A DNA stretch of 27,466 nucleotides from a virus: positions 1 to 27,466 of the IMG/VR virus record IMGVR_UViG_3300025146_000409. One strand, 5' to 3'. Positions within the stretch are counted from its first letter, which is position 1; every line of letters begins with the position of its first letter. Both the position numbers and the translations under genes were made by a program. The notes beneath the pieces were generated by a model. That model saw only the letters and a program-made list of their open reading frames with translations. It was not told the DNA's origin and ran no database searches. Positions 2,230 through 25,293 of the stretch are shown in pieces.

Positions 2230-2349
2230 TTTGCAAACAAAAGCCCGCCATCTTGCGTTTTGCCGATTTCCTGTCAGAGACACCGGGCGGTTCGCAAAAT
2301 AGCGGGCCTTTGCTGGCAAAATAAAACCGCCGCTGTCTCTGACAATTTG
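2230..2349 (-). ncRNA. ABCABC-pseudoknot leader RNA, copy 1 (before HNH gene)
   Basis: Read on the - strand: A TGTCAGAGACA (2344-2334), B TTTTGCC (2321-2315), C CAAAGGCCCGC (2312-2302), then the complements in the same order: A' (2282-2272, 11 bp), B' (2264-2258, 7 bp), C' (2248-2238, 11 bp with one G-U). A further 7-bp pairing (2331-2325 with 2292-2286) lies inside the A/A' arms. C' runs into TTTTGTTTG and then the ATG at 2229. A begins about 6 bases after the -10 box at 2350-2355, so it sits at the transcript 5' end. The helices are seen in sequence; regulation is inferred. Confidence 0.7.
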
Positions 2350-2358
2350 ATTATATCA
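2350..2358 (-). promoter_or_regulatory. Extended -10 promoter for the HNH leader
   Basis: TGATATAAT on the - strand, a perfect TGN-TATAAT extended -10 element. No convincing -35 is seen, which extended -10 promoters do not need. Transcription should start near 2343, at the first base of helix A. It is back to back with the + promoter at 2376-2384, so the two probably interfere. Confidence 0.7.
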
Positions 2359-2375
2359 TATAAATATATTTTTGG

Positions 2376-2384
2376 TGATATAAT
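2376..2384 (+). promoter_or_regulatory. Extended -10 promoter for the holin/lysin operon
   Basis: TGATATAAT, identical to the elements at 20606 and 25187 on the + strand and at 2350-2358 on the - strand. Predicted start is near 2391, and the first gene begins at 2431 after a strong GAAAGGAG. Confidence 0.7.
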
Positions 2385-2430
2385 CTTTATAATACTGGGG
2401 AGCAACATTGATATTTGAAAGGAGTCTACT

Positions 2431-2799
2431 ATGATTGCAGTTGCTTATATTTTATTGATTTTGTTTCTCGCCACCGTGGTTGAATCGCTGACGGAGGCAC
2501 TTTTTGGCGAGCCCCTCTCGACCATCGGCAACCAGACCCTGCTCAAGTGGAAGCCCTACATCCTCCGTTATATCGCTATGGCGGTTGGCGTGGGATTGTC
2601 CTTTCACTACACGCTTGACCTGGTATCCCTGACCTGGCAGCTACTGGCCGAACAGTTACAGATGGCGTTACCCGCGATTTCAGCATCCTCTATCGGTTAT
2701 ATTTTGACCGGTCTTGGAATTGGACGCGGTGCGTCGTGGTTGCACCAACTACTCAAAACTATACTGCCGAACCTGGGGGCGCGGCTAGGAGGCACATAA
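2431..2799 (+). CDS. Putative holin (multi-span membrane protein)
   Basis: 122 residues; ATG preceded by GAAAGGAG at 6 bases. Three hydrophobic segments: about 2-17 (AVAYILLILFLATVVES), 44-62 (YILRYIAMAVGVGLSFHYTL) and 85-103 (SSIGYILTGLGIGRGAS). Only one base separates its stop from the start of a cell-wall-hydrolase-like gene, the usual holin-endolysin arrangement. The YIAMAVGVGL and ILTGLGIGRGA segments resemble phage holin-like membrane proteins. Holins form membrane lesions at lysis that release or activate the lysin. The role is inferred from topology and neighbour; no enzymatic motif exists to confirm it. Confidence 0.65.
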   Translation: MIAVAYILLILFLATVVESLTEALFGEPLSTIGNQTLLKWKPYILRYIAMAVGVGLSFHYTLDLVSLTWQLLAEQLQMALPAISASSIGYILTGLGIGRGASWLHQLLKTILPNLGARLGGT

Positions 2800-2800
2800 G

Positions 2801-3667
2801 ATGATCCCGCAAGGCAAATTTATGTTTTTGTGGCAATTACGAAACGTTGAGGGCGGAAACCCAATCAAGATCGCCGATACCGCCGTCGCCCTTGGCCTTG
2901 CGGGAGTTTCTATCAAGGTCGCGCAAGGGCGGGGCAAATATAATTTGCGTTGGGACGGCAAGCGTTGGATAGATGACATTCTCAGGCCAGCGGTGAATGC
3001 TCTGCACCAAGTGGGCTTGAGGGTGCACGGTTGGCAGTGGGTAGACGGAGACGATCCTACCGGCGAGGCCCTATGTATTCTTGACCGCATCCAGCAAATG
3101 GGTTTGGACGGGCTTGAGGTAGACGCGGAGGGCACGTATAAGGGCAAACCCAAGTCGGCGCGCATCTACATGAGCATACTCAAAGATAACGTACCCTCCG
3201 GGTTCCATATCGGTCTAACCAGCTACCGCTATCCCACACTGCATCCTGAATTTCCGTGGCAAGCGTTTTGCCAGTATGCAGATTACCACATGCCACAGAT
3301 TTACTGGAATCCACCCTACCCCCCCAATTATGGGCCTGCGCCTGAGCTGAACCGGTCCGTAATGGAATTACGCGCGGTCAAGGACTTGCCGATTATACCC
3401 GCTGGCCGCACCTATATCGGGGACGGACATCCTGATCCCACTCCCGCCGAAATGAACGAATTCATGCAACGATGCAAGGATTTAGAATTACCTGGTTTCA
3501 GTTTTTGGGCGTATGATTTTCTGTATCTACATGCGAATGGCAAGGCCCGCTCCGACGCAATTGCCGCGTTTCAATGGGGCGTTATTTCCCCTCCCCCGCC
3601 TGTTCCCCTTACACTTGAGGAGCGAGTACGGGATTTAGAAATCCGAGTTACCAATCTGGGCGGTTGA
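2801..3667 (+). CDS. TIM-barrel glycoside-hydrolase-like protein, probable endolysin
   Basis: 288 residues. Beta/alpha-barrel signatures of the glycoside hydrolase superfamily: LAGVSIKV at about 33-40, VHGWQWVDGDDP at 73-84, GLDGLEVDAEGTY at 102-114 with acidic residues at a strand end, GFHIGLTSYRYP at 134-145, YHMPQIYW at 163-170 and FSFWAYDFL at 232-240. A proline-rich linker (SPPPPVPLTLEER) leads to a short C-terminal coiled coil (VRDLEIRVTNLGG) that could oligomerise it. It follows the holin directly, so cleaving host peptidoglycan at lysis is the likely role; a virion-bound hydrolase is the alternative, since tail-fibre genes follow. Confidence 0.7.
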   Translation: MIPQGKFMFLWQLRNVEGGNPIKIADTAVALGLAGVSIKVAQGRGKYNLRWDGKRWIDDILRPAVNALHQVGLRVHGWQWVDGDDPTGEALCILDRIQQMGLDGLEVDAEGTYKGKPKSARIYMSILKDNVPSGFHIGLTSYRYPTLHPEFPWQAFCQYADYHMPQIYWNPPYPPNYGPAPELNRSVMELRAVKDLPIIPAGRTYIGDGHPDPTPAEMNEFMQRCKDLELPGFSFWAYDFLYLHANGKARSDAIAAFQWGVISPPPPVPLTLEERVRDLEIRVTNLGG

Positions 3668-3668
3668 T

Positions 3669-4355
3669 ATGCATAACATTTTCGGGCGCTCGTTTTGGAT
3701 AGGCTCGGAGGCCGAGAGATCGGCCTTTGAACCTACCCTTATCGGCACGCGCTTTTATACTGAGGATACTGACAGTCTCTATATCTGGGACGCGGGTTGG
3801 GTATTGATTGGACCCAGCGGGGGCGGGGGCGGTACGCCTTCAGGCACAGTTGTCTCCGAGATAAGCTACGGCCAATCGCCAACCGCGGGAATAGCCGCAA
3901 CTTTCCAACGCGGAGACCATACCCACGGTACTCCCCCTCTCCCTACCATTGACCACGCGGACTTAACCGGAGTTACAGCGACTCAGCACCACACCAACGC
4001 CAATGACCCTGTGGCAGGTGAAAAGGCAGCGCTTGCGGGCACAAGCGGGACGCCGGGGAGTGGAAATAAATATGTTACCGATGCCGACAGCCGCAACACC
4101 AACGCCCGCACGCCTACGGCTCATGGACATCCTGAATCGGAAATAACGAATCTAGTAACGGATCTGGCTGGGAAAGAACCCGCTAACAGCAATATTCAGA
4201 CGCACATCGCCAGCACGGCCAACCCGCACTCGACCACCGCCGCACAAGTGGGAGCGCTTGCGACTACGGCATTTGTCGGGCTGAGTAAAATAACGGTCGC
4301 CAGTAGCGCACCGGGATCACCGTCTACAAATGACTTATGGTGTGACATCAGCTAG
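3669..4355 (+). CDS. Tail/head fibre-like protein with histidine-rich repeats
   Basis: 228 residues, starting right after the lysin stop. N-terminal part (TRFYTEDTDSLYIWDAGWVL) is of the kind seen in phage minor structural proteins, followed by a glycine-rich hinge. The middle and C-terminal parts carry short fibre repeats: GDHTHGTPPLPTIDHADLTG, ATQHHTNANDP, PTAHGHPESEITNLV, QTHIASTANPHSTTAAQVGA. Such low-complexity Gly/Ala/Ser/Thr/His-rich repeats with HxH and PHxTxAxQVGA patterns are typical of trimeric phage fibres used for host attachment. Adsorption is the likely role; the exact virion position cannot be told. Confidence 0.7.
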   Translation: MHNIFGRSFWIGSEAERSAFEPTLIGTRFYTEDTDSLYIWDAGWVLIGPSGGGGGTPSGTVVSEISYGQSPTAGIAATFQRGDHTHGTPPLPTIDHADLTGVTATQHHTNANDPVAGEKAALAGTSGTPGSGNKYVTDADSRNTNARTPTAHGHPESEITNLVTDLAGKEPANSNIQTHIASTANPHSTTAAQVGALATTAFVGLSKITVASSAPGSPSTNDLWCDIS

Positions 4356-4363
4356 GAGTTATT

Positions 4364-5149
4364 ATGGCAATCGCATCCAATGACAACTATATCGCATCGG
4401 TAAAGCAATACATTACCTGGTTCAAAACTGCCTCCCGCACTGCGGTAGCGGCAATCCCGTTTACAAATTTCGATCAGGCCGGTGTTCCTGGGGCGGGCAC
4501 ATTAGCCGTGGGCAATACCGCCAATGGGATTGTACCTACCGATACATTGGCCGGATACCCACTGATCAACACTATCAGCGGAACCGGCTATCTGGGTAAG
4601 ATCGATTTCGGCTGGACGGTTGTGGGGCGCTTGCATCTATACGATTGCCTGTTTAGCGCGGGCGCGTATACATTCAATGCGGACGTAACCCTGACGAGTC
4701 AACCGTCATTTGCCGGACGCGTACCAGGCGGCAACTATAATGGCTTGGAGTTGTGGCTCGAGGCGGTGACGGCCTTTACTGGCAGCCAGACTTGCCAGAT
4801 CAACTATCTCGATCAGGGTGGGGCGGCTGGCGATACCGGCGCTATTGCGACCGCGGTTGCGCCTATCATCGGTCGCAAGTTCCGTATGCCCCTCGCGGCA
4901 GGCGATAGCGGTATCTCGCAACTGGTACGGGTGCGCAGCTCAGTCTCTACAGTTGGCACTTTCAATGTGCATATCATGCGCCCGCTCTGGACTGGTCGCG
5001 TCATCGTGGCAAACGGCGGTGATACTCGCGATTATCTAAGCACCGGACTTAAGCAGATTTATGACACATCGGCATTGCGGGTGATAGTACAGCCTGATTC
5101 AACCGCAACTGCCCTGCCGCAACTTTATATTCAGGTGTGCGATGGCTAG
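4364..5149 (+). CDS. Phage structural protein, probably virion appendage
   Basis: 261 residues; ATG after AGGAGTT. No catalytic motif, transmembrane segment or signal. The composition is typical of a beta-rich virion protein: many Gly, Ala, Thr, Val and few Lys. Segments such as GTLAVGNTANGIVP, GGNYNGLELWLEAVTAFTGS and AGDSGISQLVRVRSSV suggest repeated beta strands. It lies between a fibre-like gene and a small Trp-repeat protein, with an 8-base overlap with the latter, so it is probably an adsorption-apparatus or decoration component. The family was not recognised. Confidence 0.6.
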   Translation: MAIASNDNYIASVKQYITWFKTASRTAVAAIPFTNFDQAGVPGAGTLAVGNTANGIVPTDTLAGYPLINTISGTGYLGKIDFGWTVVGRLHLYDCLFSAGAYTFNADVTLTSQPSFAGRVPGGNYNGLELWLEAVTAFTGSQTCQINYLDQGGAAGDTGAIATAVAPIIGRKFRMPLAAGDSGISQLVRVRSSVSTVGTFNVHIMRPLWTGRVIVANGGDTRDYLSTGLKQIYDTSALRVIVQPDSTATALPQLYIQVCDG

Positions 5150-5402
5150 TAGTTTATTTCGGCATACGCCACGATTGACGCTCTCGGATATGATCGATAA
5201 AGGGGGCGTCAGTCAACTGGTGGCTGACGATTTCTTCGAGACTGGAACAGGCCCGACATATGATGGAGTATTACGGCGCTGGAACGGGGCAAGCTGGGTA
5301 AAGGCAAAGTTGCGGCGTTGGACGGGCGCGGTTTGGGCAGATGCAGTTTTGAAATTTTGGGACGGATCGCAATGGGGATTGGTGGATACGACAGGAGTAT
5401 AA
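5142..5402 (+). CDS. Small virion protein with three tandem Trp repeats
   Basis: 86 residues, overlapping the previous gene by 8 bases. The C-terminal half has three repeats with the pattern L-R/K-x-W-x-G-x-x-W: LRRWNGASWVKAK, LRRWTGAVWADAV and LKFWDGSQWGLVD. Short WNGxxW repeats are common at the ends of phage fibre or tip proteins. Last gene of the late + operon, ending in the bidirectional terminator. Function beyond a structural role is unknown. Confidence 0.65.
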   Translation: MASSLFRHTPRLTLSDMIDKGGVSQLVADDFFETGTGPTYDGVLRRWNGASWVKAKLRRWTGAVWADAVLKFWDGSQWGLVDTTGV

Positions 5403-5432
5403 AAAGCCCCTCGTGATGAGGGGCTTTCGTTT
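5403..5432. terminator. Bidirectional intrinsic terminator
   Basis: A perfect 10-bp stem AAAGCCCCTC (5403-5412) / GAGGGGCTTT (5418-5427) with loop GTGAT, preceded by an A-run and followed by TTTCGTTT. It lies between the convergent + operon (ends 5402) and - operon (ends 5449) and can serve both. Confidence 0.9.
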
Positions 5433-5448
5433 CGGCGTGGTTTTGTTT

Positions 5449-5961
5449 TCAGTCTGCTTTGAATGCGTCCGCGATCTCATTGCGAATAATGCGGCGAAGG
5501 CGGGTTTCGTCAATTTCATTCAATATAGGTTTCTGCTGGCCGTCTTCACGCCTTACAATTTTCAGGATAACTTCATCTTCCCATTCAGGCAGGTGATCCG
5601 GTTTGGTAATGGTATTTGCCGCTTTTTCAAGCTCTTGTCTGTGGTGAAGCAGATCATAACGGAATCTGGAATACATGCAGGAAAAACATGCCATTCCATC
5701 GTAATCGTTCCATAACGCCCGCAGCGCCCGTTTCATGGCCTGTTTCGCGTGTGGATAATAATCATCGGAAATGGGGTCTTGGGGATGCCGCACCGTCATG
5801 CCGGCGTAGAATGCCAGCGGTTGCGATTGGGTAATGCGGCAAGTTATGACCTCGCGCAAGCCCTGATCTCGTAGGACTTGCAAGGTATCGACGGCGAAGG
5901 CGATGTAATAGGTTTTGCCGTCAAATTCGGTTTCGAAAGCGGGAACGCTGGATAGTTTCAT
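5449..5961 (-). CDS. Unknown early phage protein
   Basis: 170 residues from the ATG at 5961, chosen because AAGGAG lies just upstream; an in-frame ATG at 6024 lacks such a signal and falls inside the previous gene. Begins MKLSSVPAFETEFDGKTYYI and has a Cys pair in ACFSCMYSRFRYDLLHH, which could bind metal but has no clear partner ligands. The C-terminus is charged and helical (ETRLRRIIRNEIADAFKAD). Last gene of the long leftward operon that carries the exonuclease and SSB-like protein, so a role in early DNA metabolism is possible, but nothing shows it directly. Confidence 0.65.
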   Translation of the reverse strand: MKLSSVPAFETEFDGKTYYIAFAVDTLQVLRDQGLREVITCRITQSQPLAFYAGMTVRHPQDPISDDYYPHAKQAMKRALRALWNDYDGMACFSCMYSRFRYDLLHHRQELEKAANTITKPDHLPEWEDEVILKIVRREDGQQKPILNEIDETRLRRIIRNEIADAFKAD

Positions 5962-5969
5962 GTTTCTCC

Positions 5970-6686
5970 TTATTCGTAAATCCAACGCAAAAAACCCTTG
6001 CGCTGGCTCCGATTTTTGGCCCACCGCCCCCGGTCGTCATATTCGCAGATTTCGGCGACGGTCAATAACTGGCACGGCATTGCCGTATTGCCACTAAAGC
6101 CTACAAAACTCATGACGCCGGTGTTCGCGATAACCCGCGCCAGTTCCAGGGGCTGCGAAACGTCACCTTTGAGATAGGCGAGAACCGCGTCATACTCGCC
6201 CTGTTGCCATAAAACAGGCGCTTTGGATCCGTGCATATCCGTCAATTTCTCGCCGGTTGTGAGCGTAACTTCGTGAACCTTGCCTGCCACACCCGATCCC
6301 GCCAATGCTTTATCAAGCCCCAGGAAGTGGCCGCGCTGCGCATAAACCAAAAACATCATATCGACGTGATTTAAGGCCAGCTCGGCGCATTCCTTAGCCA
6401 TCTCGCTTTCGATGGCTAAGACCTGAAAATCGAATTGCGCCCCGTTCCATGTCAGCAGGGTTTGGTGCTTGGCGATATCCTGTAAATCCTTGACCATAGC
6501 CCGGGCGGCGTGGCGGTCAAGGCATGGGCGCGGTGTTGACCAGAACTGGGTGTAATCGTCACAGGCTACCGCCGCGCAGGAGATGCCCAATGGGGTCTCT
6601 GCCAGCCAGTTGTTCATGTTCGTGACGGATTTATAGATTTCGAGATCGAAGGCAGCGTATTTGCAAGATTTGATTTCGGGGAGCAT
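5970..6686 (-). CDS. DnaQ/PolB-type 3'-5' exonuclease (DEDDy)
   Basis: 238 residues; start supported by AAAGGA 8 bases upstream. Carries the RNase H-fold exonuclease motifs: Exo I AAFDLEIYK (Asp14, Glu16), Exo II LLTWNGAQFDFQ (Asp86) and Exo III YLKGDV, with Tyr171 and Asp175 in the Y-x3-D spacing of the DEDDy subclass. The family removes nucleotides from 3' ends using two metal ions. No polymerase domain is attached, so this is a stand-alone exonuclease, as in PolB-exonuclease-like phage proteins. Likely roles are recombination, proofreading or end processing during phage replication. It shares a leftward operon with the SSB-like gene. Confidence 0.85.
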   Translation of the reverse strand: MLPEIKSCKYAAFDLEIYKSVTNMNNWLAETPLGISCAAVACDDYTQFWSTPRPCLDRHAARAMVKDLQDIAKHQTLLTWNGAQFDFQVLAIESEMAKECAELALNHVDMMFLVYAQRGHFLGLDKALAGSGVAGKVHEVTLTTGEKLTDMHGSKAPVLWQQGEYDAVLAYLKGDVSQPLELARVIANTGVMSFVGFSGNTAMPCQLLTVAEICEYDDRGRWAKNRSQRKGFLRWIYE

Positions 6687-6721
6687 GGTTATTCCTTTCT
6701 AGGTTTGAGTAGGGTTCAGGT

Positions 6722-7102
6722 TCAAATATTACGGAGGCTACAGCTGGGCTCGCCCTCTTTGCGGAAGGCAACGATTTCGGGATGGGCTATCATGAAGCCA
6801 TCCAGGCCCTTGTTGTCCCAAGACACGCGCCCTTTCATGAAAATGGCGTGTAGATACGCGCCTTTGACGGACTGGCCGTGACTGATTATTGCCTGTTTGA
6901 TCTCGCCCTCAAAGTTGGAGGATTTCTCGCTTGCCGTCGCAACTTTCTCAACAAACTCAGCTTCAATATCCGCTATTTTGGCCTTAATATCAAATGGGAT
7001 AACGAGATCAATAAGTTCCTGTTTCTGGAGAGTCAGGGCATCGCAGGCAGCGCGTAAGTTTACAAGTTCGTCAAGCTTTGATTTTATTTCGTGTTCGTCC
7101 AT
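6722..7102 (-). CDS. Conserved phage protein with N-terminal coiled coil
   Basis: 126 residues; AAAGGAA precedes the ATG. Residues 1-70 are strongly helical and charged (EIKSKLDELVNLRAACDALT, then IEAEFVEKVATASEKS). The C-terminal part, IKQAIISHGQSVKGAYLHAI, then MKGRVSWDNKGLDGFMIAHP and a final FRKEGEPSCSLRNI, is a motif set I have seen in unnamed early phage proteins; no function is established. Overlaps the upstream gene by 19 bases, so translation is probably coupled. A recombination-accessory or nuclease-modulating role would fit the neighbours but is speculation. Confidence 0.7.
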   Translation of the reverse strand: MDEHEIKSKLDELVNLRAACDALTLQKQELIDLVIPFDIKAKIADIEAEFVEKVATASEKSSNFEGEIKQAIISHGQSVKGAYLHAIFMKGRVSWDNKGLDGFMIAHPEIVAFRKEGEPSCSLRNI

Positions 7103-11547: not shown

Positions 11548-11710
11548 AGTTACATCATAAATCGCTGGCAGAACAAAATACCAGCAAGGGCCGTGGCAAG
11601 CCCAATCAGACAGAATAATAAGCCGCTTCTTTTGGGCTTGTGGTCTTAACCTATCTGTCTAGGTAATCGCCACAGGCCGCAGGTCCAAAAGAAGCGGTTT
11701 GTTTTATCTG
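11548..11710 (+). ncRNA. ABCABC-pseudoknot leader RNA, copy 2 (before HicA operon)
   Basis: Intergenic 11542-11729 holds no gene. Helices: A CAAGCCC (11597-11603) with A' (11634-11640), 7 bp; B AGACAGA (11608-11614) with B' (11654-11660), 7 bp; C AAGCCGCTTCTTTT (11620-11633) with C' (11687-11700), 14 bp with one G-U. C' is followed by GTTTTATCTG, so C/C' resembles an intrinsic terminator. Extra elements: a hairpin GCTGG/CCAGC at 11564-11585, B' placed in the loop of a 5-bp hairpin (11649-11664), and 11636-11643 able to pair instead with 11670-11677. That last pairing excludes A/A', so this copy could switch between two folds. Confidence 0.65.
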
Positions 11711-11729: not shown

Positions 11730-11900
11730 ATGACTAAAAGCCTAAAGATTGTCTTCAACGACCCCATCACAACCGAGCTCGAAAATGAATTGGTGGATGT
11801 AATACTGGCCTGGGTCGAGGCCCACGATCTGACCGTCGCTATTATTCCGAGCGAAGAATCCGAAAGCGAGGAGGCCGGCGATGTCCAAGAAAACCAGTAG
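11730..11900 (+). CDS. Short acidic protein upstream of HicA-like gene
   Basis: 56 residues; AAGGAG before the ATG. MTKSLKIVFNDPITTELENE, LVDVILAWVEAHDLTVAIIP, then an acidic tail SEESESEEAGDVQENQ. Overlaps the HicA-like gene by 20 bases. A small acidic protein translated just ahead of a basic toxin-like protein would fit an antitoxin, but it does not resemble HicB. It may equally be an unrelated early protein. Confidence 0.65.
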   Translation: MTKSLKIVFNDPITTELENELVDVILAWVEAHDLTVAIIPSEESESEEAGDVQENQ

Positions 11901-12117
11901 TTATTACATCGGCGTTGCCCGCAAGAGCGGCTTCAGCATCCGCGAGGGCGGCAGCCACACCAAGATTTATGCCCCCGGCTCAGGGCGTCCGATGGTGATA
12001 CCCCGGCACCGCGATCTGTCACCGGGTGTGGAACACGCTATTGTAAAATGGCTTTTGAAGATGGGCGTGATATTGGGGATAATGCTGGCGATGTGCCGCA
12101 TTACGGGTGCGTTATGA
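11881..12117 (+). CDS. hicA: HicA-family protein (mRNA interferase-like)
   Basis: 78 residues. The sequence YYIGVARKSGFSIREGGSHT and KIYAPGSGRPMVIPRHRDLS follows the HicA layout: an N-terminal helix ending in a Gly-hydrophobic pair, the conserved G-S-H with the catalytic His (His26), a beta hairpin, P-x-H/R, then a C-terminal helix. HicA proteins have a dsRBD-like fold and cut mRNA when free of their antitoxin HicB. No HicB-like gene is next to it; flanking genes are a 56-residue acidic protein and a 55-residue unknown. The last 20 residues (ILGIMLAMCRITGAL) are unusually hydrophobic for the family. Confidence 0.75.
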   Translation: MSKKTSSYYIGVARKSGFSIREGGSHTKIYAPGSGRPMVIPRHRDLSPGVEHAIVKWLLKMGVILGIMLAMCRITGAL

Positions 12118-13449: not shown

Positions 13450-13458
13450 TGGTATAAT
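13450..13458 (+). promoter_or_regulatory. Extended -10 promoter for the replication initiator
   Basis: TGGTATAAT, perfect TGN-TATAAT. No clear -35 upstream. Start expected near 13465, which is the first base of helix A in the leader RNA. Confidence 0.7.
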
Positions 13459-13570
13459 AAAAGCGTCACAGAAAACAGCGCTTTTTATTTGCCAATAGAG
13501 GCCCCTTATCCTGCAAGCGTCTGTTTCTGTGACAAGAACTGGCAAGGCAGGATGAGGGGCTTCTGTTTAG
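13459..13570 (+). ncRNA. ABCABC-pseudoknot leader RNA, copy 3 (before replication initiator)
   Basis: A GTCACAGAAAACAG (13465-13478) pairs with A' (13521-13533; 13 bp with one bulge). B TTGCCA (13489-13494) pairs with B' (13540-13545; 6 bp). C GAGGCCCCTTATCCTGC (13498-13514) pairs with C' (13547-13563; 17 bp including two G-U). C' runs into TTCTGTTTAGG and the Shine-Dalgarno AGGAG of the gene at 13578. A local hairpin (13459-13465 with 13479-13485, 7 bp) encloses most of A and could compete with A/A'. No coding sequence lies between 13421 and 13577. Confidence 0.75.
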
Positions 13571-13577
13571 GAGCATC

Positions 13578-14378
13578 ATGAGCGTAAAAATTATGACCCT
13601 GGTTTTTGAAGCCTCTATACCTGATCTAAAGTATACAAAAAAAGATAAAAAAAGGATAGCAAAAGCATCTACAATAAAACTTTTGCTTTTGGCCTATGCA
13701 GATCACGCCAACGACGAGGGGGAGGCTGCCTATCCAGGCTATACTCGCCTCGAACTAAAAACAGCATTAAGCCGGCAAGGAATATCCGATACACTAGAAG
13801 CCATTCGCCAACATGGTTTTATGGTTCATAAAGGGAAAAGCAAGCGCCATACCGGGATATATGAATTCAATATCAAAATGCTAGAAGCTCTAGTCAAGCC
13901 CCTTGACCGGTCAAGCCACTTGACTAGTACTAGTCAAGCCACTTTACCAGTACCGGTCAAGCCACTTGACTTAAATCATCCTTTAACCATCCTTGAATCA
14001 TCCTCTTATGGCGAAAAAGAACTCGCCATTGAAAAGCCTTCTGAGAAGGCAAACGGCAAACGAGATGTTAAGGCTGATCTTCTCCCCTCTACGGAGGGAG
14101 GAAAGTTAATTATGCTTAAGCTCACACAAGAGCAGAACGCGAAGGGGCGGGGGGCGGTCAAATACTTCGAGTCGCTGGCGCAAAAGCAAACCCTGGAGGC
14201 GGCTGAGGCCAGGCTAGGGCAGGCTGAATTCGAGAAGGCGCTGCAAAAGGCTTTAGAGACTGGGATCACGCAGAGGGCGCGTATAGTCAATTACATCGTG
14301 AAGTGGAACCCCAACCGAACCTGGACGCAGCCCACGCTTGACAACGGGCAGCCGTGTCTAATCAGAGCGAGGGACTAA
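13578..14378 (+). CDS. Replication initiator-like protein (winged HTH) with internal origin
   Basis: 266 residues; AGGAG before ATG. N-terminal winged-helix domain typical of phage O/DnaD-like replication proteins: IKLLLLAYADHANDEGEAAY, then PGYTRLELKTALSRQGISDT and LEAIRQHGFMVHKGKSKRHT. The middle (about 105-160) is a linker encoded by the iterons (VKPLDRSSHLTSTSQATLPV). The C-terminal domain (KGRGAVKYFESLAQKQTLEA, then FEKALQKALETGITQRARIV) probably contacts the helicase. The gene lies between primase and helicase, and the DNA repeats inside it mirror lambda O, whose gene contains ori. The initiator role is inferred from domain, location and origin repeats. Confidence 0.75.
   Translation: MSVKIMTLVFEASIPDLKYTKKDKKRIAKASTIKLLLLAYADHANDEGEAAYPGYTRLELKTALSRQGISDTLEAIRQHGFMVHKGKSKRHTGIYEFNIKMLEALVKPLDRSSHLTSTSQATLPVPVKPLDLNHPLTILESSSYGEKELAIEKPSEKANGKRDVKADLLPSTEGGKLIMLKLTQEQNAKGRGAVKYFESLAQKQTLEAAEARLGQAEFEKALQKALETGITQRARIVNYIVKWNPNRTWTQPTLDNGQPCLIRARD
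13891..14003. other. Probable phage replication origin: iterons plus AT-rich repeats
   Basis: Four 17-bp iterons begin at 13891, 13908, 13931 and 13954, with consensus YRGTCAAGCCACTTGAC. Each is palindromic (GTCAAG, 3 bases, CTTGAC); copy 1 has CCC in the centre and copy 3 has TTTAC at its end. They are followed at 13971-14003 by three tandem 11-mers, TTAAATCATCC, TTTAACCATCC and TTGAATCATCC, which look like a DNA-unwinding element. Iterons plus an unwinding element inside the initiator gene is the lambda-type layout. Confidence 0.75.
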
Positions 14379-16628
14379 ATGGATACGATGAAAAATGTTT
14401 TTGACCCCGGCATGGTCAGCCAGGCCACGGTTCAGCTTTTACAGGATCGCAAGCTCAGGCTGGGCGAGAGCATCAAGACCGGGATCGCCGACCTGGACGA
14501 AGTCCTAAACCCGTTGCGCCCAGGTGAGCTTATTGTGGTGTTAGGCTATACCCGCAACTACAAGAGCGGACTCATGAATTTTATCAGTCGCTATCACGCG
14601 ATGCGTCTGCGCGATGCGGGGGCCATGAATCAGGCCGTGATTACCTTCACCTGGGAGCAGTCTATCGAGGAGCAGGGGATCATCGATATTGCCCAGCTCA
14701 CCAGCCTTGACTCCAACAGGATGATGCGGGGTCAGCTCAGCGAGGACGAATGGAATCTTTTACTTTTAGGCGCGATGCGGCGTGGTACTCTGCCGTGGTG
14801 GCTGGTGGGGCATAGCGCCTGCATCAACGAGAGACGGCCTCGCCTGAATATGTCGGAGGTCGCGGAAGTGCTGGCCTGGATCGTGGATTACCAGGAGATC
14901 GAGCCTGTGCTGGTGGTGCTTGACTATTTGCAGCGCATCAAGCGTGAGCGTGGTGATACCTTGCGCGAGCAGTTCATAGCGATTGTCGATCAGGCTAAAG
15001 ACCTGGCGTTAGCGTTTCACTGCCCCGTTATTTTGGGCAGCCAGGCGGGGCGAACGGTGGTCAATACGCCGTCGCGGACGTGGCGGCTTCCGCACGTGGA
15101 TGAAGGGCAGGAATGTTTAGCCGGAGATGTTGTTTTGGTTAATGCCAAAACGGGAGATACTAAATCTGTCCGAGAATGGCACGAAAAAGGGAGCGATCTT
15201 TACTTACATACTATGCAGGAAAATTGGCATTTTTGTGTTCAGAAATCTTGGCCTATAAGATTAGCGGCAATTCAAGATATTTATAAGATTTTGACAAAGG
15301 ATAATAAGTTTATTCGTGTATCCGGGAATCATCCTTTTTATACGCCTCAGGGATGGAAAAAAGCTGATCGGCTAAAATCTGGGGATTATGTAGCTTATGC
15401 TCGTTGTTTAGATGTGATTGATGCGAAACAATTAAATAAGAGCCGAGCTCTAATTCTGGGTTTATTACTTGGCGATGGATCGTATACTAATGGTTCTACC
15501 CCAACTTTATCGTGTGGGCATAGAAAGGAAATTGGTGATATTGCAGCACGGATTGTTCGTGAAGAATTCAATTTATCTACTACATATAATGTGGCTAAGG
15601 ATGGGAACATAGAAGTTTATTTTACCGGACCGCAGAATGTTGGACCTGGGAAAAATACTTTAATCGATTGGTTACGAAAAATTGGGCTATATGGGCAGCG
15701 ACATAATAATGCTGAAATACCCCAATTAGTATTTCAGTCGTCTAATGAATCTATAGCGTCTTTTTTGTGTGGTTTGTACACTGCTGACGGTTGTTATTCT
15801 CGGCCCTCCAAAAAAATAACTTCACCGGTTATTTCGTTTTGTTCGGCCAGTATTTTGATGGCTCGACAAGTAGTTGATTTATTATTAAGATTGGGTATTC
15901 ATTCAAGTAGTAGAATTCAACTTCCTGGAAAAAGAACAGTTCTACCAATGAATATAATTAATATAACGGGAATGGAAAATGTGGGGAGATTCATGAATAT
16001 CGTAGGATTTTTAGGTACAAAGCAAAAAAAAGCAAGAGAACGGTTTGATATTGCTGTTTCATTGAGAAGCAAATCCAAAATAAAACTTCGATCTTCTGAG
16101 ACACTCCCTCCAGAAATTTCATTAGAATTTATTGAGATGGTAAAAAAATATCACATGAGAGCTCGGTACGCGATGGTAAAGGGGAGAGGCATAAGTTACT
16201 CTAAGGCTATTTGCGCTGCTCAAGAAATGGGGGAAAATCATTGGCCGGAAAGATTGAATGGAGATATTGTTTGGGTTAGGGTAGAAGAAGTGATATTAGA
16301 TGGACGCGAACAAACATATGATATTTCTATTCCGCCTGAACATAATTTTATTGCTAATGGGTTTGTTGTGCATAACACATCAAATCTTGAGCAAAGCGCA
16401 GATAAATTGATCTCGGTATGGATGCCTAAAAACGACAACCCAACCGGAACTGTGCTTGAATACGCCAATAAGACTTACCGCGTGACCGACAATTTGTTGA
16501 TCCTGGGTGTGATGAAACAAAAATTCGGCCCGTCCCCGCGTGTCATGGAATTGACTGTTTATCCCGAGACCAACGATATCACTTGTGTCAAAACGATTGA
16601 ATTGAATCATTACGCCAGCGATCGCTAG
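14379..16628 (+). CDS. DnaB-like replicative helicase interrupted by an intein
   Basis: 749 residues as translated: 245 N-extein, 421 intein, 83 C-extein, so 328 after splicing. The RecA-fold ATPase has Walker A at 56-63 (GYTRNYKS), a catalytic-type Glu in FTWEQ (93) and Walker B VLVVLDYLQRI (Asp182), followed by VILGSQAGR. After the intein comes TSNLEQSADKLISVWMPK, the DnaB H4-type motif (S-G-x-I-E-Q-D-A-D). There is no DnaB N-terminal domain. The Walker A has Tyr where the Gly before Lys is usual. It follows the initiator immediately and should unwind DNA at the origin within it. Confidence 0.85.
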   Translation: MDTMKNVFDPGMVSQATVQLLQDRKLRLGESIKTGIADLDEVLNPLRPGELIVVLGYTRNYKSGLMNFISRYHAMRLRDAGAMNQAVITFTWEQSIEEQGIIDIAQLTSLDSNRMMRGQLSEDEWNLLLLGAMRRGTLPWWLVGHSACINERRPRLNMSEVAEVLAWIVDYQEIEPVLVVLDYLQRIKRERGDTLREQFIAIVDQAKDLALAFHCPVILGSQAGRTVVNTPSRTWRLPHVDEGQECLAGDVVLVNAKTGDTKSVREWHEKGSDLYLHTMQENWHFCVQKSWPIRLAAIQDIYKILTKDNKFIRVSGNHPFYTPQGWKKADRLKSGDYVAYARCLDVIDAKQLNKSRALILGLLLGDGSYTNGSTPTLSCGHRKEIGDIAARIVREEFNLSTTYNVAKDGNIEVYFTGPQNVGPGKNTLIDWLRKIGLYGQRHNNAEIPQLVFQSSNESIASFLCGLYTADGCYSRPSKKITSPVISFCSASILMARQVVDLLLRLGIHSSSRIQLPGKRTVLPMNIINITGMENVGRFMNIVGFLGTKQKKARERFDIAVSLRSKSKIKLRSSETLPPEISLEFIEMVKKYHMRARYAMVKGRGISYSKAICAAQEMGENHWPERLNGDIVWVRVEEVILDGREQTYDISIPPEHNFIANGFVVHNTSNLEQSADKLISVWMPKNDNPTGTVLEYANKTYRVTDNLLILGVMKQKFGPSPRVMELTVYPETNDITCVKTIELNHYASDR
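15114..16376 (+). mobile_element. Intein with LAGLIDADG homing endonuclease domain
   Basis: 421 residues, helicase positions 246-666. Starts with Cys (CLAGDVVLVNAKTGD; block A), has block B as RVSGNHPFYTP, two LAGLIDADG helices (LILGLLLGDGSY and ASFLCGLYTADGCY) and ends with FIANGFVVHN followed by Thr. The terminal His-Asn and downstream Thr nucleophile are all intact, so splicing is expected. The DNA is much more AT-rich than the flanking helicase sequence, a sign of separate origin. The site is directly before the conserved H4 motif of the helicase, a typical choice of a highly conserved active-site target. Confidence 0.92.
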
Positions 16629-20614: not shown

Positions 20615-20635
20615 TTCATATAGAGAGGCGTCAAT

Positions 20636-20929
20636 ATGAGCCAGAAGGCCAAAGCGGAGAAAGGGAAAGCCATTGCCCAAATCCAATTCTATGCCAGCTT
20701 GCCACCAATTCAGTCCGCGCTCAAAATCAGCGGCGACGGCGACAATTTAAGGGTACAGCTCGATATCCCGATCCGAATTAGCCCCGATGGCCTGAAACTG
20801 GCTTTGTTCACACAGAAGCGGCTTTTAGTGACGGTGATCGAATTACCGGAAAACGATGAGCGACCCATCCCACGAAAACGCATTACCAAATATCCAACCT
20901 ACGCCAAAGCCTCTGAGACCAAAGCATAG
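20636..20929 (+). CDS. Small unknown protein before terminase
   Basis: 97 residues. MSQKAKAEKGKAIAQIQFYA, then SLPPIQSALKISGDGDNLRV and QLDIPIRISPDGLKLALFTQ, ending basic (RPIPRKRITKYPTYAKASET). Predicted mixed alpha/beta with a strand-rich centre. It overlaps the terminase small subunit by 74 bases, so it may work in packaging, but nothing recognised. Confidence 0.6.
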   Translation: MSQKAKAEKGKAIAQIQFYASLPPIQSALKISGDGDNLRVQLDIPIRISPDGLKLALFTQKRLLVTVIELPENDERPIPRKRITKYPTYAKASETKA

Positions 20930-21530
20930 AGTCTTTGTCGAGGAATATCTGCGGTTATGGAACGCCACGGATGCTTATCGTTTGGCGTATCCGAAGTGTT
21001 CACAGGAAAGTGCGCGCCGTAAAGGCTCGTTGTTGTTGACAAATGTTGACATCAAAGATGAAATTTCGCGTCGCTTGACTGAGCGGGCGATGGGGGCCGA
21101 CGAAGTACTTGACCGATTGGGGAGATGGGCGCGGGGTAGTCACCAACCTTTCATAAAGATAAGCGATAATGGTTTTATCTATTTTGATTTTTCTAACCCT
21201 GAAGCATTGAAGCATATTGACCTCATCAAGAAAATAAAGACGAAACGCACGCGCCGGCTCGAGGGCAGGGGCGAGAACGCGGAAGAATGGGAGGATGAAT
21301 GGGTAGAGGTCGAGTTATATGACGCCAAAGATGCAGCGGCTTTAATTGGCAAGCATCATAAATTATTCAATGAGCGCGTGGAGCATACTGGGGCTGGCGG
21401 CGGGCCTATCCCAATAGCGGTGACCAATGACAGACTTGATCGAGCAATATTTACTCTTGCTGATGCCCTCCGAGAAGCGGTACCTGGCGCGGATTCAGGA
21501 AAGGATAGTACTTTGGGTTCCCCAAAGTAA
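20856..21530 (+). CDS. terS: Terminase small subunit
   Basis: 224 residues. The N-terminal DNA-binding part follows the small-terminase pattern: RPKHRVFVEEYLRLWNATDA, then YRLAYPKCSQESARRKGSLL and LTNVDIKDEISRRLTERAM, i.e. an HTH 'F...Y....N.T.A...A.....S....G..LL....V...I' layout. The middle includes ADEVLDRLGRWARGS. Recognises the packaging site and loads the large subunit. Overlaps the large subunit by 104 bases; the start at 20856 has only a weak GGAAAA site. Confidence 0.85.
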   Translation: MSDPSHENALPNIQPTPKPLRPKHRVFVEEYLRLWNATDAYRLAYPKCSQESARRKGSLLLTNVDIKDEISRRLTERAMGADEVLDRLGRWARGSHQPFIKISDNGFIYFDFSNPEALKHIDLIKKIKTKRTRRLEGRGENAEEWEDEWVEVELYDAKDAAALIGKHHKLFNERVEHTGAGGGPIPIAVTNDRLDRAIFTLADALREAVPGADSGKDSTLGSPK

Positions 21531-22902
21531 GCCACAATGGCTGGCATTTTTATCGAGAGCCGATGAAGTATTTTATGGCGGAAGCGCTGGCGGGGGTAAA
21601 ACTGACCTCGGAATCGGGCTTGCGATTGAATGCCATAAACATTCTGCTATCTTCCGCCGCGTCTATCCCAACTTGTCCGGGATCATGCAGCGGGCGCGTG
21701 AGATTATTGGAGAGACGGCGCATGAAAATAAAGCCGACAAGATATGGACTTGGAGTGACGCTCGTACACTCGAATTCGGGGCGGTGCAGTACGAGGATGA
21801 TAAAAAGAACTGGCAGGGTCGCCCCCATGACTTTTTATTCTTCGATGAAATCACCGAATTTACCGAGACTCAGTATGTGTTCATATGCGGATGGAATCGC
21901 ACTACCGACGCTAATCAGCGTGTGCGCGTCATTGTTGGCGGTAACCCCCCGTTTGACGAATCGGGTTCTTGGGTGGTCAGGCATTGGGAGGCATGGCTTG
22001 CCCCCAAACATCCAAGACCCGCCAAGCCCGGTGAATTGCGCTGGTACGCCACGGTGCAGGGCAAAGAGCGGGAGTTTCCCAATGGTAGCCCGGTTGAGAT
22101 CGAGGCCGAGATCATATATCCACGCTCACGCACATTTATACCGGCCAGGCTTAACGATAACCCATTTCTTACCCATGACTCCAGGTATCGCTCTGTTATT
22201 CAGTCCATGCCTGAGCCGTTGCGGTCAATGCTTCTTTACGGCGATTTCACGGCCACAACCAAGCCCGATCCGTTTCAGGTTATCCCCACAGAGTGGGTCA
22301 GGCTTGCGCAAAAGCGAGGGATGGAGCGCAATAGGCCGGCTATACCCTGTACTGGCGCGGGGCTTGATGCAGCCAGGGGCGGTGATGACTACATGGCGCT
22401 AGCGCGGCGTTACGATGATTGGTTTGCCGAGGTCAAGAAATGGCCCGGTGTTCAGGTCCCCGATGGTCCCACGGCTGCAACGCTGGTACATTCGGAATTA
22501 GGCAATGAAAAGCCCGGTTATATCAATGTGGACGTGATTGGGATTGGGTCATCTACTTTTGATCACATTGTGCCTCTGTACGATAAAGTAAATCCAGTCA
22601 ACGTATCTGAGAAATCAGAATACCACGATAAATCGGGTAAGCTCAAGATGACCAATATCCGCGCCGAGATTCATTGGCGGATGCGGGAGGCCTTAGACCC
22701 ATCTCAGGGCAGCACGATGGCATTACCGAATGACCCCGAAGTGTTGGCGGATTTATGCGCGCCGCGCTACCGCATAACCTCAGCCGGGGTTATAATTGAG
22801 AAGAAAGAAGAAATCAAGGCGCGCATAGGCCGTAGCCCCGATGTAGGCGAAGCCATTATGCTTTGCAACTACATTAGCGATGGTGGCGGCTGGACGTGGT
22901 GA
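21427..22902 (+). CDS. terL: Terminase large subunit (ATPase-nuclease)
   Basis: 491 residues. ATPase: Walker A GGSAGGGKT (51-59), adenine-region VPQSKPQWLAFL (31-42), Walker B DFLFFDE with catalytic Asp140-Glu141, coupling motif VGGNPP. C-terminal RNase H-like nuclease: GAGLDAARGGDDYMAL (Asp314, Asp320/321), VDVIGIGSSTFDHI, and RSPDVGEAIMLC near the end (Asp). All motifs of a complete packaging motor are present. It cuts concatemers and pumps DNA into the prohead through the portal encoded at 23491. Confidence 0.93.
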   Translation: MTDLIEQYLLLLMPSEKRYLARIQERIVLWVPQSKPQWLAFLSRADEVFYGGSAGGGKTDLGIGLAIECHKHSAIFRRVYPNLSGIMQRAREIIGETAHENKADKIWTWSDARTLEFGAVQYEDDKKNWQGRPHDFLFFDEITEFTETQYVFICGWNRTTDANQRVRVIVGGNPPFDESGSWVVRHWEAWLAPKHPRPAKPGELRWYATVQGKEREFPNGSPVEIEAEIIYPRSRTFIPARLNDNPFLTHDSRYRSVIQSMPEPLRSMLLYGDFTATTKPDPFQVIPTEWVRLAQKRGMERNRPAIPCTGAGLDAARGGDDYMALARRYDDWFAEVKKWPGVQVPDGPTAATLVHSELGNEKPGYINVDVIGIGSSTFDHIVPLYDKVNPVNVSEKSEYHDKSGKLKMTNIRAEIHWRMREALDPSQGSTMALPNDPEVLADLCAPRYRITSAGVIIEKKEEIKARIGRSPDVGEAIMLCNYISDGGGWTW

Positions 22903-22914
22903 AATGGAGGACAC

Positions 22915-23469
22915 ATGATTACTCGCAGAAGCTTCTTTAAAGTAATAGGTGCTGGATTGGTTGCGCTAGTCGCAGGCAAATTGGTGTTGCCAGAGAATGC
23001 CGAAGGAACAGACGCGTTCTTCCTGGATGACATTGATCCGGTTGTGGATGGTGTGTTGGATTGGTCTAAAGCTGTATCAGACGAAACCAATCCAGATATT
23101 ATCAAAGCTTTGCAGCAATTGGCAGATGATGCTCGTTTCCGGTATCAGCATATGGGGGAACAGACAACAAAGGGTGTTTTTAGTGGGCTGAAAGATAGTA
23201 TTAGCACCGGAGTCTATGATTCAATTGTGGTGGATTGGAAAGAAAACGTGCTGCCCGAAGGCGAATCGATGACCGAGATCGCAGTACCATTATCTCGTTG
23301 GCCCGCCGAAGACGAGAATATTTGGGAAAGCGCTGTTGGACCCGTTAATGTTTCTGATGATGGGGGTAAAACCTGGCGAGGCGTTAAAGTGGAAGATGTC
23401 AAACTCATGGAATATCTAAGTAAACTGAAATGCCCTTTTGAGTTATATTATACCGATCGAGTCGAATAG
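22915..23469 (+). CDS. Protein with a twin-arginine (Tat)-type signal, between terminase and portal
   Basis: 184 residues; strong GGAGG before the ATG. MITRRSFFKVIGAGLVALVA is an almost textbook Tat signal: T-R-R-x-F-F-K followed by a moderately hydrophobic, Gly/Ala-rich segment. The mature part (DPVVDGVLDWSKAVSDETNP, YDSIVVDWKENVLPEGESMT, DDGGKTWRGVKVEDVKLMEY) is acidic with no known domain. Tat substrates are exported folded, unexpected in the packaging cluster. Alternatives: a virion protein with an N-terminal helix that fortuitously matches, or an acquired host gene. No enzymatic motif is visible. Confidence 0.65.
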   Translation: MITRRSFFKVIGAGLVALVAGKLVLPENAEGTDAFFLDDIDPVVDGVLDWSKAVSDETNPDIIKALQQLADDARFRYQHMGEQTTKGVFSGLKDSISTGVYDSIVVDWKENVLPEGESMTEIAVPLSRWPAEDENIWESAVGPVNVSDDGGKTWRGVKVEDVKLMEYLSKLKCPFELYYTDRVE

Positions 23470-23490
23470 TTGCGGGAGCGGGAGTTAGCA

Positions 23491-25137
23491 ATGGCAAAGA
23501 CAACCTCGAAACAACCCCGATTTACTGAAAAAGAAGTTGACGGCATTATGGTCGATTTGCTGTCGTGGGCGCAAGACCTTGAAGACGCGCCCCCATACAG
23601 GCCCGACACGCGATACCGTGATACCTGGCTGGCCGAGTTCTGGCGCAAGGAGCCGCACCTGCAAGGCGTTATACATTCGATGGTCAGCATCGACGCCAAC
23701 CGGGGCTGGACACTGACGGGCGGGCGCAACCAAGTGTTGAGATATACCGGGGTCTTGCACGACTGGACGGTGGCCTGGGGCCTCAAGGGCTGGCGACCGG
23801 GCACGGCGGCGCTGTCCACCGCTTATCATACCTCGGACTTCGGCGGCATTGCCGAGATAGGCAGGGACGGCAAGTCAGGCCCAACGCGCCAGTTCTTCCA
23901 CCTCGACCCCACGCGTTGTTACTTGACCAGCAAGGAAGAATTCCCGATCTCCTACGTGCCTAAAGTGGGGCGCAGTCACAAGATTATACCCTACCGCGAA
24001 ATGGACATGATTAGAGTCGCATCCATGCCCGAGATTCGCGAGGAGTACAGGGGCGCGGGCTGGTGTTTCTTGAGCCGTGCCGAAATCTTAATCCGTCTCA
24101 TGATTGCGGTGTGGCAGCACGACCTGGAAGCGTTGGGCGCGGCGGCTCCGCGCGGTATCCTGCTTATCCTGGGTATCAGCGAGAAACAGTGGCGGGATGC
24201 GATGGTCGGCAGAAAAGCCGACCGTGAGGGCGCGAATGTCAGGTACTATGACGCCATTCAAGTTCTGTGCGGCAACGGCCCAAACGTGGATGCCAAGTTG
24301 ATCGCGCTGTCCCAGCTCCCCGCCAATTTCAATTTGCGGGACTTTATCGCTATGTTCATGTATGGCCTGGCATTGATCGCCGGATATGACCCCAGCGAGT
24401 TCTACCCCGTTCAGTTCGGGTCGTTGGGGCGTGGGACAGAGATGGAAGTTCAGCACGAAAAAGCAACGGGCAAGGGCGGGCGTAATTTCATTCTGGCTGT
24501 CCAGGAACAGTTACAACGCCCTGACGTGTTGCCGGAAGCCCTGCACTTCGAATACGACGAGCGCGACGAAGCTGCCGAGATCGAAGCCGCCAATGTGATG
24601 CAGGCGTGGGCGAATGTGTTCAAGACCATGCGTGAAACCGGTATGCAGTTGGGCGTAGGCGGGGCCATTACCGACCAGGAAACGCGCCAGCTCTACGCCG
24701 AGAAGGGCATGATTGCGCCGGAGTGGGTGGATACTGAAATCCCCTCTACTTCCAGCGATGAAGACGAAGCCGGTACGGATGAGGAAGCGGTGACGGAGGC
24801 GCGGCAGCTACGTATCAGGCGTGACATGCTGCTGGCCCAGCCCCACATCTGGCGCGCTGTTCGCGCTTTCCCCGATGACGCTTTAGTTCGTTACCAATGG
24901 CCTAAAGATCGGGTACAGGTGTTGTGGAGTTCGGGTTCGAGCCTGATAAAGCGTGTGTACCAACCCGCCGCGCGCATACGGAGACAGGACGAGTCGGCGG
25001 TATTGTATGAGAAGGGCGAGGTCAAGATCACGGCTGATATGGTCACGCAAGCTATCAACCAGGGCATAAAGAGGACGGGGGCTGAGTTCGGGCAGCTTCT
25101 GGACAATGAGCCGATTACAGAAGGGGAAACGATTTGA
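23491..25137 (+). CDS. Phage portal protein
   Basis: 548 residues from the ATG at 23491, chosen because GGGAG lies 7 bases upstream; a TTG at 23470 is possible. Portal-type features: RDTWLAEFWRKEPHLQGVIH, then SMVSIDANRGWTLTGG, DEFIAMFMYGLALIAGYDPS-like helix region, YPVQFGSLGRGTEMEVQHEK and FILAVQEQLQRPDVLPEALH, an order typical of Mu-gp29/DUF935-like or SPP1-type portals. An acidic segment near 440-450 (SSDEDEAGTDEEAVTE) precedes the C-terminal part. Forms the dodecameric DNA entry ring at one capsid vertex. It follows terminase, as usual. Confidence 0.85.
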   Translation: MAKTTSKQPRFTEKEVDGIMVDLLSWAQDLEDAPPYRPDTRYRDTWLAEFWRKEPHLQGVIHSMVSIDANRGWTLTGGRNQVLRYTGVLHDWTVAWGLKGWRPGTAALSTAYHTSDFGGIAEIGRDGKSGPTRQFFHLDPTRCYLTSKEEFPISYVPKVGRSHKIIPYREMDMIRVASMPEIREEYRGAGWCFLSRAEILIRLMIAVWQHDLEALGAAAPRGILLILGISEKQWRDAMVGRKADREGANVRYYDAIQVLCGNGPNVDAKLIALSQLPANFNLRDFIAMFMYGLALIAGYDPSEFYPVQFGSLGRGTEMEVQHEKATGKGGRNFILAVQEQLQRPDVLPEALHFEYDERDEAAEIEAANVMQAWANVFKTMRETGMQLGVGGAITDQETRQLYAEKGMIAPEWVDTEIPSTSSDEDEAGTDEEAVTEARQLRIRRDMLLAQPHIWRAVRAFPDDALVRYQWPKDRVQVLWSSGSSLIKRVYQPAARIRRQDESAVLYEKGEVKITADMVTQAINQGIKRTGAEFGQLLDNEPITEGETI

Positions 25138-25220
25138 ACGCAACCCAACCGCAACTGCTACAGATACCGCTTGCCCAAGGTGATTGTGATATAATGACCA
25201 CGCTGAGGGCATACCTATGA
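25134..25220 (+). pseudogene. Truncated methyltransferase-like N-terminus
   Basis: TTG start in a TTGA overlap with the portal stop, 28 codons to TGA at 25218. NATQPQLLQIPLAQGDCDIM, then TTLRAYL: the start matches the N-terminus of the methyltransferase at 25745 (QPQLLQIPL in both), and the second half (QGDCDIM.TL) resembles the opening of N6A/N4C methyltransferases such as the one at 27081 (LHCGDCLAWLPTLP). The extended -10 promoter and helix A of leader copy 4 lie inside it. It looks like the remains of a methyltransferase gene interrupted or overwritten by the HNH cassette. Confidence 0.45.
25187..25195 (+). promoter_or_regulatory. Extended -10 promoter for the HNH/AP2 cassette
   Basis: TGATATAAT, same as at 20606 and 2376. 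Start near 25202, at the first base of helix A. Confidence 0.7.
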
Positions 25221-25293
25221 TTGATAATAAATAGCCGCTCTCTACTGGTATCCCTCAGCAAGATATCAATCTGTAGAAGGCGGCTATTTATTT
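25202..25293 (+). ncRNA. ABCABC-pseudoknot leader RNA, copy 4 (before HNH/AP2 gene)
   Basis: A GCTGAGGG (25202-25209) pairs perfectly with A' (25252-25259; 8 bp). B GATTGATA (25219-25226) pairs with B' (25264-25271; 8 bp). C ATAAATAGCCGC (25227-25238) pairs with C' (25280-25291; 12 bp), extended by TCTAC/GTAGA (25241-25245 with 25273-25277) across a 2x2 internal loop. C' ends in TATTTATTTGAGG, which includes the ribosome site of the gene at 25303. The smallest and cleanest of the four copies. It has no single-base mismatch in A, B or the main C helix. Confidence 0.78.

Follow-up and report, generated by a model that had tools for sequence, protein, structure and literature searches.

The DNA analyzed here, a stretch of 27,466 nt that makes up positions 1 to 27,466 of the IMG/VR virus record IMGVR_UViG_3300025146_000409 (called the window below), harbors four transcript leaders of about 100 nt. 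In each of them, three short segments are followed by their reverse complements in the same order (A B C A' B' C'), the pairing pattern of an ABCABC pseudoknot. A preliminary description, made from the sequence alone, had placed these leaders in front of two HNH endonuclease genes, a HicA operon and a replication initiator gene. Family searches matched all of these genes, with the Pfam HNH match behind copy 1 and the HicA match staying below the cut-off. No Shine-Dalgarno sequence was found for the open reading frame (ORF) 1780..2229 (-) behind copy 1. The observation of ABCABC leaders is real, and these leaders are more widespread than was first claimed.

To look for the ABCABC arrangement, we used a custom scanner that searches for three helices in this pairing order and counts G-U pairs. 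Stretches of the window were compared with 200 dinucleotide shuffles of their own sequence, and the whole window was scanned on both strands together with one shuffled genome. Copies 1, 3 and 4, the positions of which had been given correctly, ranked first to third in the window (scores of 92, 86.5 and 71), and each of them outscored all 200 of its shuffles. The opposite strand of copy 4 also scored 71, the top unrelated site in the window 65, and the shuffled genome reached 61 at most. Since individual shuffled scores in larger GC-rich sets went up to 71 and 78.5, copy 4 is supported by its promoter register and anatomy besides its score. All three helices were present as described, but C/C' was longer than first stated: helices A/B/C comprised 11/7/22, 10/6/21 and 8/8/13 bp in copies 1, 3 and 4, with G-U pairs counted. 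The extended -10 element that places the predicted start site at helix A, claimed for three copies, was confirmed for copies 1, 3 and 4 and is absent from copy 2.

Copy 2 is a real relative, but an atypical one. The triple originally proposed had an A-A' span of just 44 nt and a long C arm that overlapped A'. The initial scan of this stretch gave a different and strongly uneven best triple (5/30/6 bp), and the site was not listed in the window scan. Under stricter limits no structure was found, while permitting a shorter A-A' span resulted in helices of 9/7/15 bp; none of 200 shuffles gave any structure under the same limits. Because copy 2 lacks a promoter in register, we treated it as a variant. 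The coordinates of all four copies are compiled in Table 1.

Table 1. Leaders, promoter-like elements and downstream genes in the window
Feature	Position	Strand	Basis or remark
Extended -10 promoter-like TGATATAAT, copy 1	2350..2358	-	Sequence; 5 nt from hexamer to TGTC of helix A
Leader copy 1	2236..2344	-	Score 92, window maximum; covaries with copy 3, L094, L116
Helices of copy 1	A 2344-2334/2282-2272, B 2321-2315/2264-2258, C 2314-2293/2257-2236	-	
HNH endonuclease ORF after copy 1	1780..2229	-	PHROG HNH families, E down to 1.2e-9; Pfam HNH under cut-off
Leader copy 2 (variant)	11597..11703	+	Relaxed span, 0/200 shuffles; no -10 in register
Helices of copy 2	A 11597-11605/11632-11640, B 11608-11614/11654-11660, C 11617-11631/11689-11703	+	
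56-aa ORF and HicA-like ORF (11881-12117) after copy 2	11730..12117	+	PF07927 E 1.3e-5, 25.6 bits vs cut-off 27
Extended -10 promoter-like TGGTATAAT, copy 3	13450..13458	+	Sequence, register
Leader copy 3	13464..13567	+	Score 86.5; covariation
Helices of copy 3	A 13465-13474/13524-13533, B 13489-13494/13540-13545, C 13494-13514/13547-13567	+	
Shine-Dalgarno AGGAG, copy 3	13569..13573	+	One nt past C'
Phage replication initiation protein after copy 3	13578..14378	+	phrog_1032 replication initiation, E 9.5e-13
Extended -10 promoter-like TGATATAAT, copy 4	25187..25195	+	Sequence, register
Leader copy 4	25202..25292	+	Score 71
Helices of copy 4	A 25202-25209/25252-25259, B 25219-25226/25264-25271, C 25226-25238/25280-25292	+	
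Shine-Dalgarno GAGGT, copy 4	25294..25298	+	One nt past C'
HNH_3 + AP2 homing-type endonuclease after copy 4	25303..25752	+	PF13392 E 3.7e-8, PF00847 E 2.2e-8

Relatives of the terminase led to seven related records (G numbers; loci are given as L numbers), which were scanned in pieces without sequence bias, with shuffled controls scoring up to 71. Record G010 was 100% identical to the window over their overlap and holds copy 4. The sequence-blind scan of the seven records revealed new ABCABC structures at L003:11807-11905 (G001, G012; score of 96.5) before a TnpB gene, at L094:5176 (G003) and L100:4373 (G006) before HNH_3 genes, and at L093:14823 (G002). The start of helix A, TGTCTAGG, was common to L003, L093 and L094, which had been found without the use of this sequence. 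A wider search was performed with the pattern TGTCTAGG-N42..72-CCTAGACA, the base of helix A together with A', which fixes A and A' and not B and C. It gave 93 stretches in IMG/VR. The 80 loci listed contained 170 strand-specific matches. A score of at least 60 was reached by 33 of them, three of these stemming from L149 (4-160), where the high score was due solely to a tandem array of TGTCTAGGCCTAGACA palindromes; this array is not a leader. When L149 was excluded, 82 palindromic sites were left, of which 30 (near-duplicates from related contigs included) showed B and C in exactly one orientation, none in both, and the rest in neither. Several phages carry at least two copies, which differ in sequence.

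Further scans, which covered the 93 loci and 20 pieces taken from 11 records (shuffled maxima of 78.5 and 67.5), added copies with other helix A starts at L108:1830, L116:3994, L151:3735, L212:3763, L206:15121 and L210:3162, and a less certain copy with no -10 element in register at L210:9588. In view of the shuffled maxima, part of the support for the weaker copies among these comes from their promoter and anatomy. Later pattern searches added the copies in L229, L245, L309 and L374. In a search that started from the promoter (TG-n-TATAAT, 5 nt, TGTCTAG), 12 of 122 among the matches listed scored at least 60 (duplicates included), so this promoter context alone does not predict a leader. For the pattern TGTTCAGG...CCTGAACA, a score of at least 60 was reached by 4 of 240 strand-specific matches among those listed. 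L108 and L374 were accepted, and L345 and L430, which are one and the same site without a promoter, were not. An unconstrained scan was set aside because loci rich in GC gave numerous false matches, with a score as high as 85.5 in L072, and a geometry-limited scan with shuffled controls (maxima of 71, 78.5 and 67.5) was used instead. Sites in L004 and L005 were dismissed as chance structure in coding regions, and the high-scoring sites L181:2393, L106:2976, L196:8962, L183:6314 and L214:1764, which have no promoter, were dropped.

Comparison with the DNA of cultured phages gave no match or short chance-like matches only, and the closest cultured terminase showed 46% identity. Among bacterial genomes, the helix A pattern was present in one of 400 (phylum of an Anaerolineae metagenome-assembled genome, MAG), at a site without an ABCABC structure, and in none of three MAGs. 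Upstream of TnpB relatives in Anaerolineae MAGs (L059-L061), no such leader was seen.

The mismatches within the helices indicate the level at which selection acts. Using Watson-Crick-only seeds, we parsed 29 of the 32 copies tried, and these contained 32 G-U, one A-C and 10 other mismatches. Since A-C corresponds to the wobble pair of the other strand, this result argues that the structure was selected as RNA. Alignment A2, consisting of four sequences (copies 1 and 3, L094, L116) and the structure of copy 1, had 90.2% of cells paired as compared to 41–51% with slid partners. Both sides were changed in 17 of 40 pairs (3/11 in helix A, 3/7 in B and 11/22 in C), and none of 500 shuffles matched on any of five measures. 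Alignment A1 combined eight diverged leaders and took its structure from L107; here, 78.9% of cells were paired versus 35–45% after sliding. None of 500 shuffles matched on four of the measures, and 7 of 500 did on one. Pairing in this alignment reached 94.5% in helix A and about 61% in B and most of C, with the alignment slipping there. Kinship alone can beat such shuffles, and a structure taken from a single row favors that row.

When the structure of copy 3 was laid on copy 1, 28 pairs were unchanged, 3 were changed on one side and kept, 6 were changed on both sides and kept, and none was broken. In the reverse direction, 26 pairs were unchanged, 3 and 6 were kept after changes on one and both sides, 2 were broken and 3 were gapped. 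Over 22 directed comparisons, 45 of 165 changed pairs were compensatory, versus 60 of 1232 when the partners were slid, and all kept changes numbered 95 of 165 versus 536 of 1232. The covariation that had been claimed within one genome is now supported across genomes as well: homologs were found, and helices A, B and C all covary in them. Judged from these alignments, the leaders have three helices, each crossing the other two and each backed by covariation, which is the ABCABC class.

The copies also share a common anatomy. Thirty of 32 copies have a TAnnnT hexamer that ends 4–6 nt upstream of helix A (counted without a shuffled control; the exceptions are L100 and L114), usually with TG one nucleotide upstream of the hexamer. 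By this fixed register, the predicted +1 is the first G of helix A. The leader extends from about 6 nt past the TG-n-TATAAT-type element to the ribosome-binding site. A U-rich loop before C and an A-rich strand after A' are common. Among the 33 listed copies that are followed by an ORF, 32 had no more than 30 nt between the end of C' and the chosen start codon; this list contains some near-duplicates, and the starts chosen for L116:320 and L172 are probably a few codons too early. The Shine-Dalgarno sequence follows shortly after C' in most copies and lies within C' in a minority (L100, L132, L141, L118). In L175, L146 and L120, a small additional hairpin directly after C' partly covers the stretch before the start codon (CGCTC-CTTTTT-GAGCG in L146, identified by eye). 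The promoter-like sites 2376+, 20606+ and 9984- of the window have short ordinary leaders without ABCABC, which suggests that the element is selective and not general. In 27 copies, the stacking of A, B and C summed to -41 to -100 kcal/mol when pseudoknot loop costs were left out, and the best nested fold reached -28 to -55 kcal/mol. On this basis, the three helices were lower in energy than the nested optimum by 12–50 kcal/mol in every copy, and the nested fold always sacrificed A or C. L146 has long helices made up almost entirely of Watson-Crick pairs.

The genes behind the leaders are potentially harmful, as the preliminary description had held, or dosage-critical. We listed 43 leader-gene pairs by hand, dropping near-duplicates. 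Endonucleases or TnpB (HNH, HNH_2, HNH_3, LAGLIDADG, OrfB_IS605, DUF559) were found in 18 pairs, the HNH matches for copy 1 of the window and L125 being under the Pfam cut-off. Seven pairs had replication initiators or DnaD-like loaders, two N6_N4 methylases, one the HicA operon, one each DUF4379, DUF6876 and LPD29, and nine had genes without a named family. Related leaders were 75–94% identical up to +100 to +120, close to the leader end or start codon, where homology ceased. This was the case for L133/L180, L172/L151, L132/L150, L111/L138, L107/L130, L133/L108, L158/L123 and L175/L125; in the last pair homology began only at -2 and excluded the promoter. Upstream likeness in L132/L150 and L111/L138 and likeness on both sides in L133/L180 and L172/L151 suggest that the leader was retained while the gene or its 5' part was replaced. 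The downstream proteins of L107/L130 and of L133/L108 had no significant similarity, those of L133/L180 had only the C-terminal part in common, and the other three compared pairs shared only short HNH or zinc-motif similarity. Since the leader is conserved while the downstream gene is exchanged, autoregulation by the encoded protein in the manner of T4 gene 32, which had been suggested at first, is unlikely.

The closely related leaders at L111:4296 and L138:1855 also have related upstream flanks; the former precedes a gene for a treble-clef protein, the latter no direct ORF, and L138 is possibly an emptied or decayed site. Elsewhere in the window, positions 14379-16628 (+) encode what we take to be a DnaB-like helicase (749 aa) with an apparent intein carrying a LAGLIDADG-type insert. 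Positions 655-1316 are of low complexity and repetitive-looking, with overlapping ORFs on both strands, and parts of this region match G010 elsewhere at about 71%.

Phage mRNA leaders with regulatory structure are known. As described in PMC3014915, the gene 32 leaders of T4, T2 and RB69 form a pseudoknot of two stacked helices upstream of the start codon that serves translational control. The leaders studied here are likewise pseudoknots in phage mRNA. Unlike the two-helix (ABAB) knot of gene 32, which is bound by its own product, they have a third crossing helix, B, which covaries, and related leaders precede different genes instead of being tied to one gene product. According to the same paper, structured RNA lowers translation initiation of the phage homing endonuclease genes I-TevI, Aeh1 mobE and T4 segB, and a reference title there names a hairpin that sequesters the ribosome-binding site of Aeh1 mobE. 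These structures are plain helices over the start region (directed against read-through transcripts for I-TevI), whereas our leaders are started by their own promoter and are used by replication genes too. Together, the endonuclease RNA structures and the gene 32 pseudoknot provide precedents for a gate on expression.

By our tentative interpretation, to which we give somewhat less than an even chance, the sequences represent a family of 5' leader RNAs of about 100 nt that would act as a portable gate on harmful or dosage-critical genes. The transcript is predicted to begin with helix A, at its first base pair. A/A' would close a hairpin with strands B and C in its large loop, and B' and C', located downstream of A', would pair back into this loop. 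Helices A and C would then be neighbors in the same way as the stems of an H-type pseudoknot, with B linking the two loop strands. The 3' end of C' would usually come to lie within 30 nt of the start codon, beside or over the Shine-Dalgarno sequence. We infer that the folded leader lowers or delays the entry of ribosomes, perhaps also transcription, into the genes for replication initiators and mobile endonucleases. Protection of the 5' end, which is predicted to be paired from the first nucleotide, may come as a by-product of such a gate.

Several observations weigh against this interpretation. The Shine-Dalgarno sequence lies mostly just outside C', so that occlusion would be partial. No ORF directly follows the leader in three of the 43 pairs (L138, L161, L374), and 52 of 82 pattern sites had no ABCABC structure, although this is as expected for chance pattern matches. 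Of the 165 changed pairs, 70 were broken, 56 of them in five more distant comparisons. Alignment A2 has only four sequences and a structure derived from one of them, and the low pairing in B and C of alignment A1 is explained only in part by misalignment. Some copies share one nucleotide between B and C, which was counted twice in the stacking sum. With C of about 20 bp and B of 6–7 bp, the helices may not all be full-length simultaneously.

Alternatively, the leader could chiefly stabilize the mRNA, with a paired first nucleotide resisting 5'-end-dependent RNases and perhaps a stall of 5'-to-3' exonucleases, as the phage counterpart of viral exonuclease-resistant RNA. The fixed register of the promoter element before helix A and the mostly free Shine-Dalgarno sequence just behind C' would fit such a role, but a plain hairpin would be sufficient for it, and stability needs neither three crossing helices nor a position against the Shine-Dalgarno sequence. 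We consider this explanation unlikely, though not negligible.

C/C' together with a U-rich tract might also constitute an intrinsic terminator that is closed across the pseudoknot, so that little RNA would reach the gene unless C/C' is blocked. A T-rich stretch following C' had been described as a constant feature; it holds as a tendency, with 37–59% T at positions 1–8 after C' in 27 hand-picked non-redundant copies, but not always. Runs of 5–6 T directly follow C' in L132, L107 and L374, and the three leaders without a direct ORF would suit an attenuator, whereas L133, L109, L123 and L108 have no good U-tract. No mutually exclusive antiterminator helix was seen, though no systematic search was made. 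On balance, attenuation appears improbable.

A nascent RNA that holds RNA polymerase and makes it ignore terminators, like put of phage HK022, is a very doubtful explanation. As stated in PMC9378689, put is a structured RNA of about 70 nt, and putL is located just downstream of an early phage promoter. The position at the transcript start and the gene independence of our leaders resemble putL, and a triplex is also present in put RNA. However, put consists there of two stem-loops that bind RNA polymerase, without ABCABC and with no pseudoknot mentioned in that paper, in contrast to the crossing helices seen here, and a terminator-like end is a poor fit. Finally, protein-binding or recombination sites in DNA with incidental RNA folding are strongly disfavored, even though the helix A base (TGTCTAGG/CCTAGACA) recurs in L003, L093 and L094 and homology between relatives stops near the leader end, because the G-U mismatches are strand-specific and each of the 30 positive sites has B and C in a single orientation.

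Searching the window against Rfam 15 yielded no match in gathering mode and two weak matches in E-value mode, neither of them at a leader. The L003 leader gave six matches up to an E value of 5, all under the gathering scores. In 13 other loci with leaders, the sole matches were a tRNA and an int-alpA RNA, both away from the leaders. The int-alpA RNA (RF02996) lies at L107:3240-3305 (+), on a phage contig that also carries a leader. Leaders of this type were not found described in the PMC literature searched, in which subscription papers are mostly missing. A survey of RNA STRAND (PMC3390330) counted ABCABC ("pseudotrefoil") in 51 RNA sequences versus 1688 with H-type pseudoknots. The crossing pattern is the same as in our leaders, and the term denotes a topology class, not a family. 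As ABCABC is already known as a rare topology class, the leaders are to be regarded as structured phage mRNA leaders with a new architecture. From the sequence evidence, they represent a new gene-independent class of 5' leader RNA that probably gates dosage-sensitive genes.

It is possible, rather than probable, that the pseudotrefoil RNA represents a new RNA fold as well as a new type of control element in phages. Triple-helix contacts would plausibly be made in it by a U-rich strand next to C', itself often rich in purines, and by an A-rich strand next to helix A, and the RNA would serve replication genes and HNH, LAGLIDADG and TnpB nucleases as a common portable, gene-independent gate. Few natural examples of ABCABC are recorded, and a family that covaries strongly, comprises dozens of diverged copies and has very stable helices would open the way to structural work. 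The rule that the leader is kept and the gene exchanged is testable. A single expression element would link two kinds of genes that are usually studied separately, those for replication initiators of phages and those for mobile endonucleases, TnpB among them.

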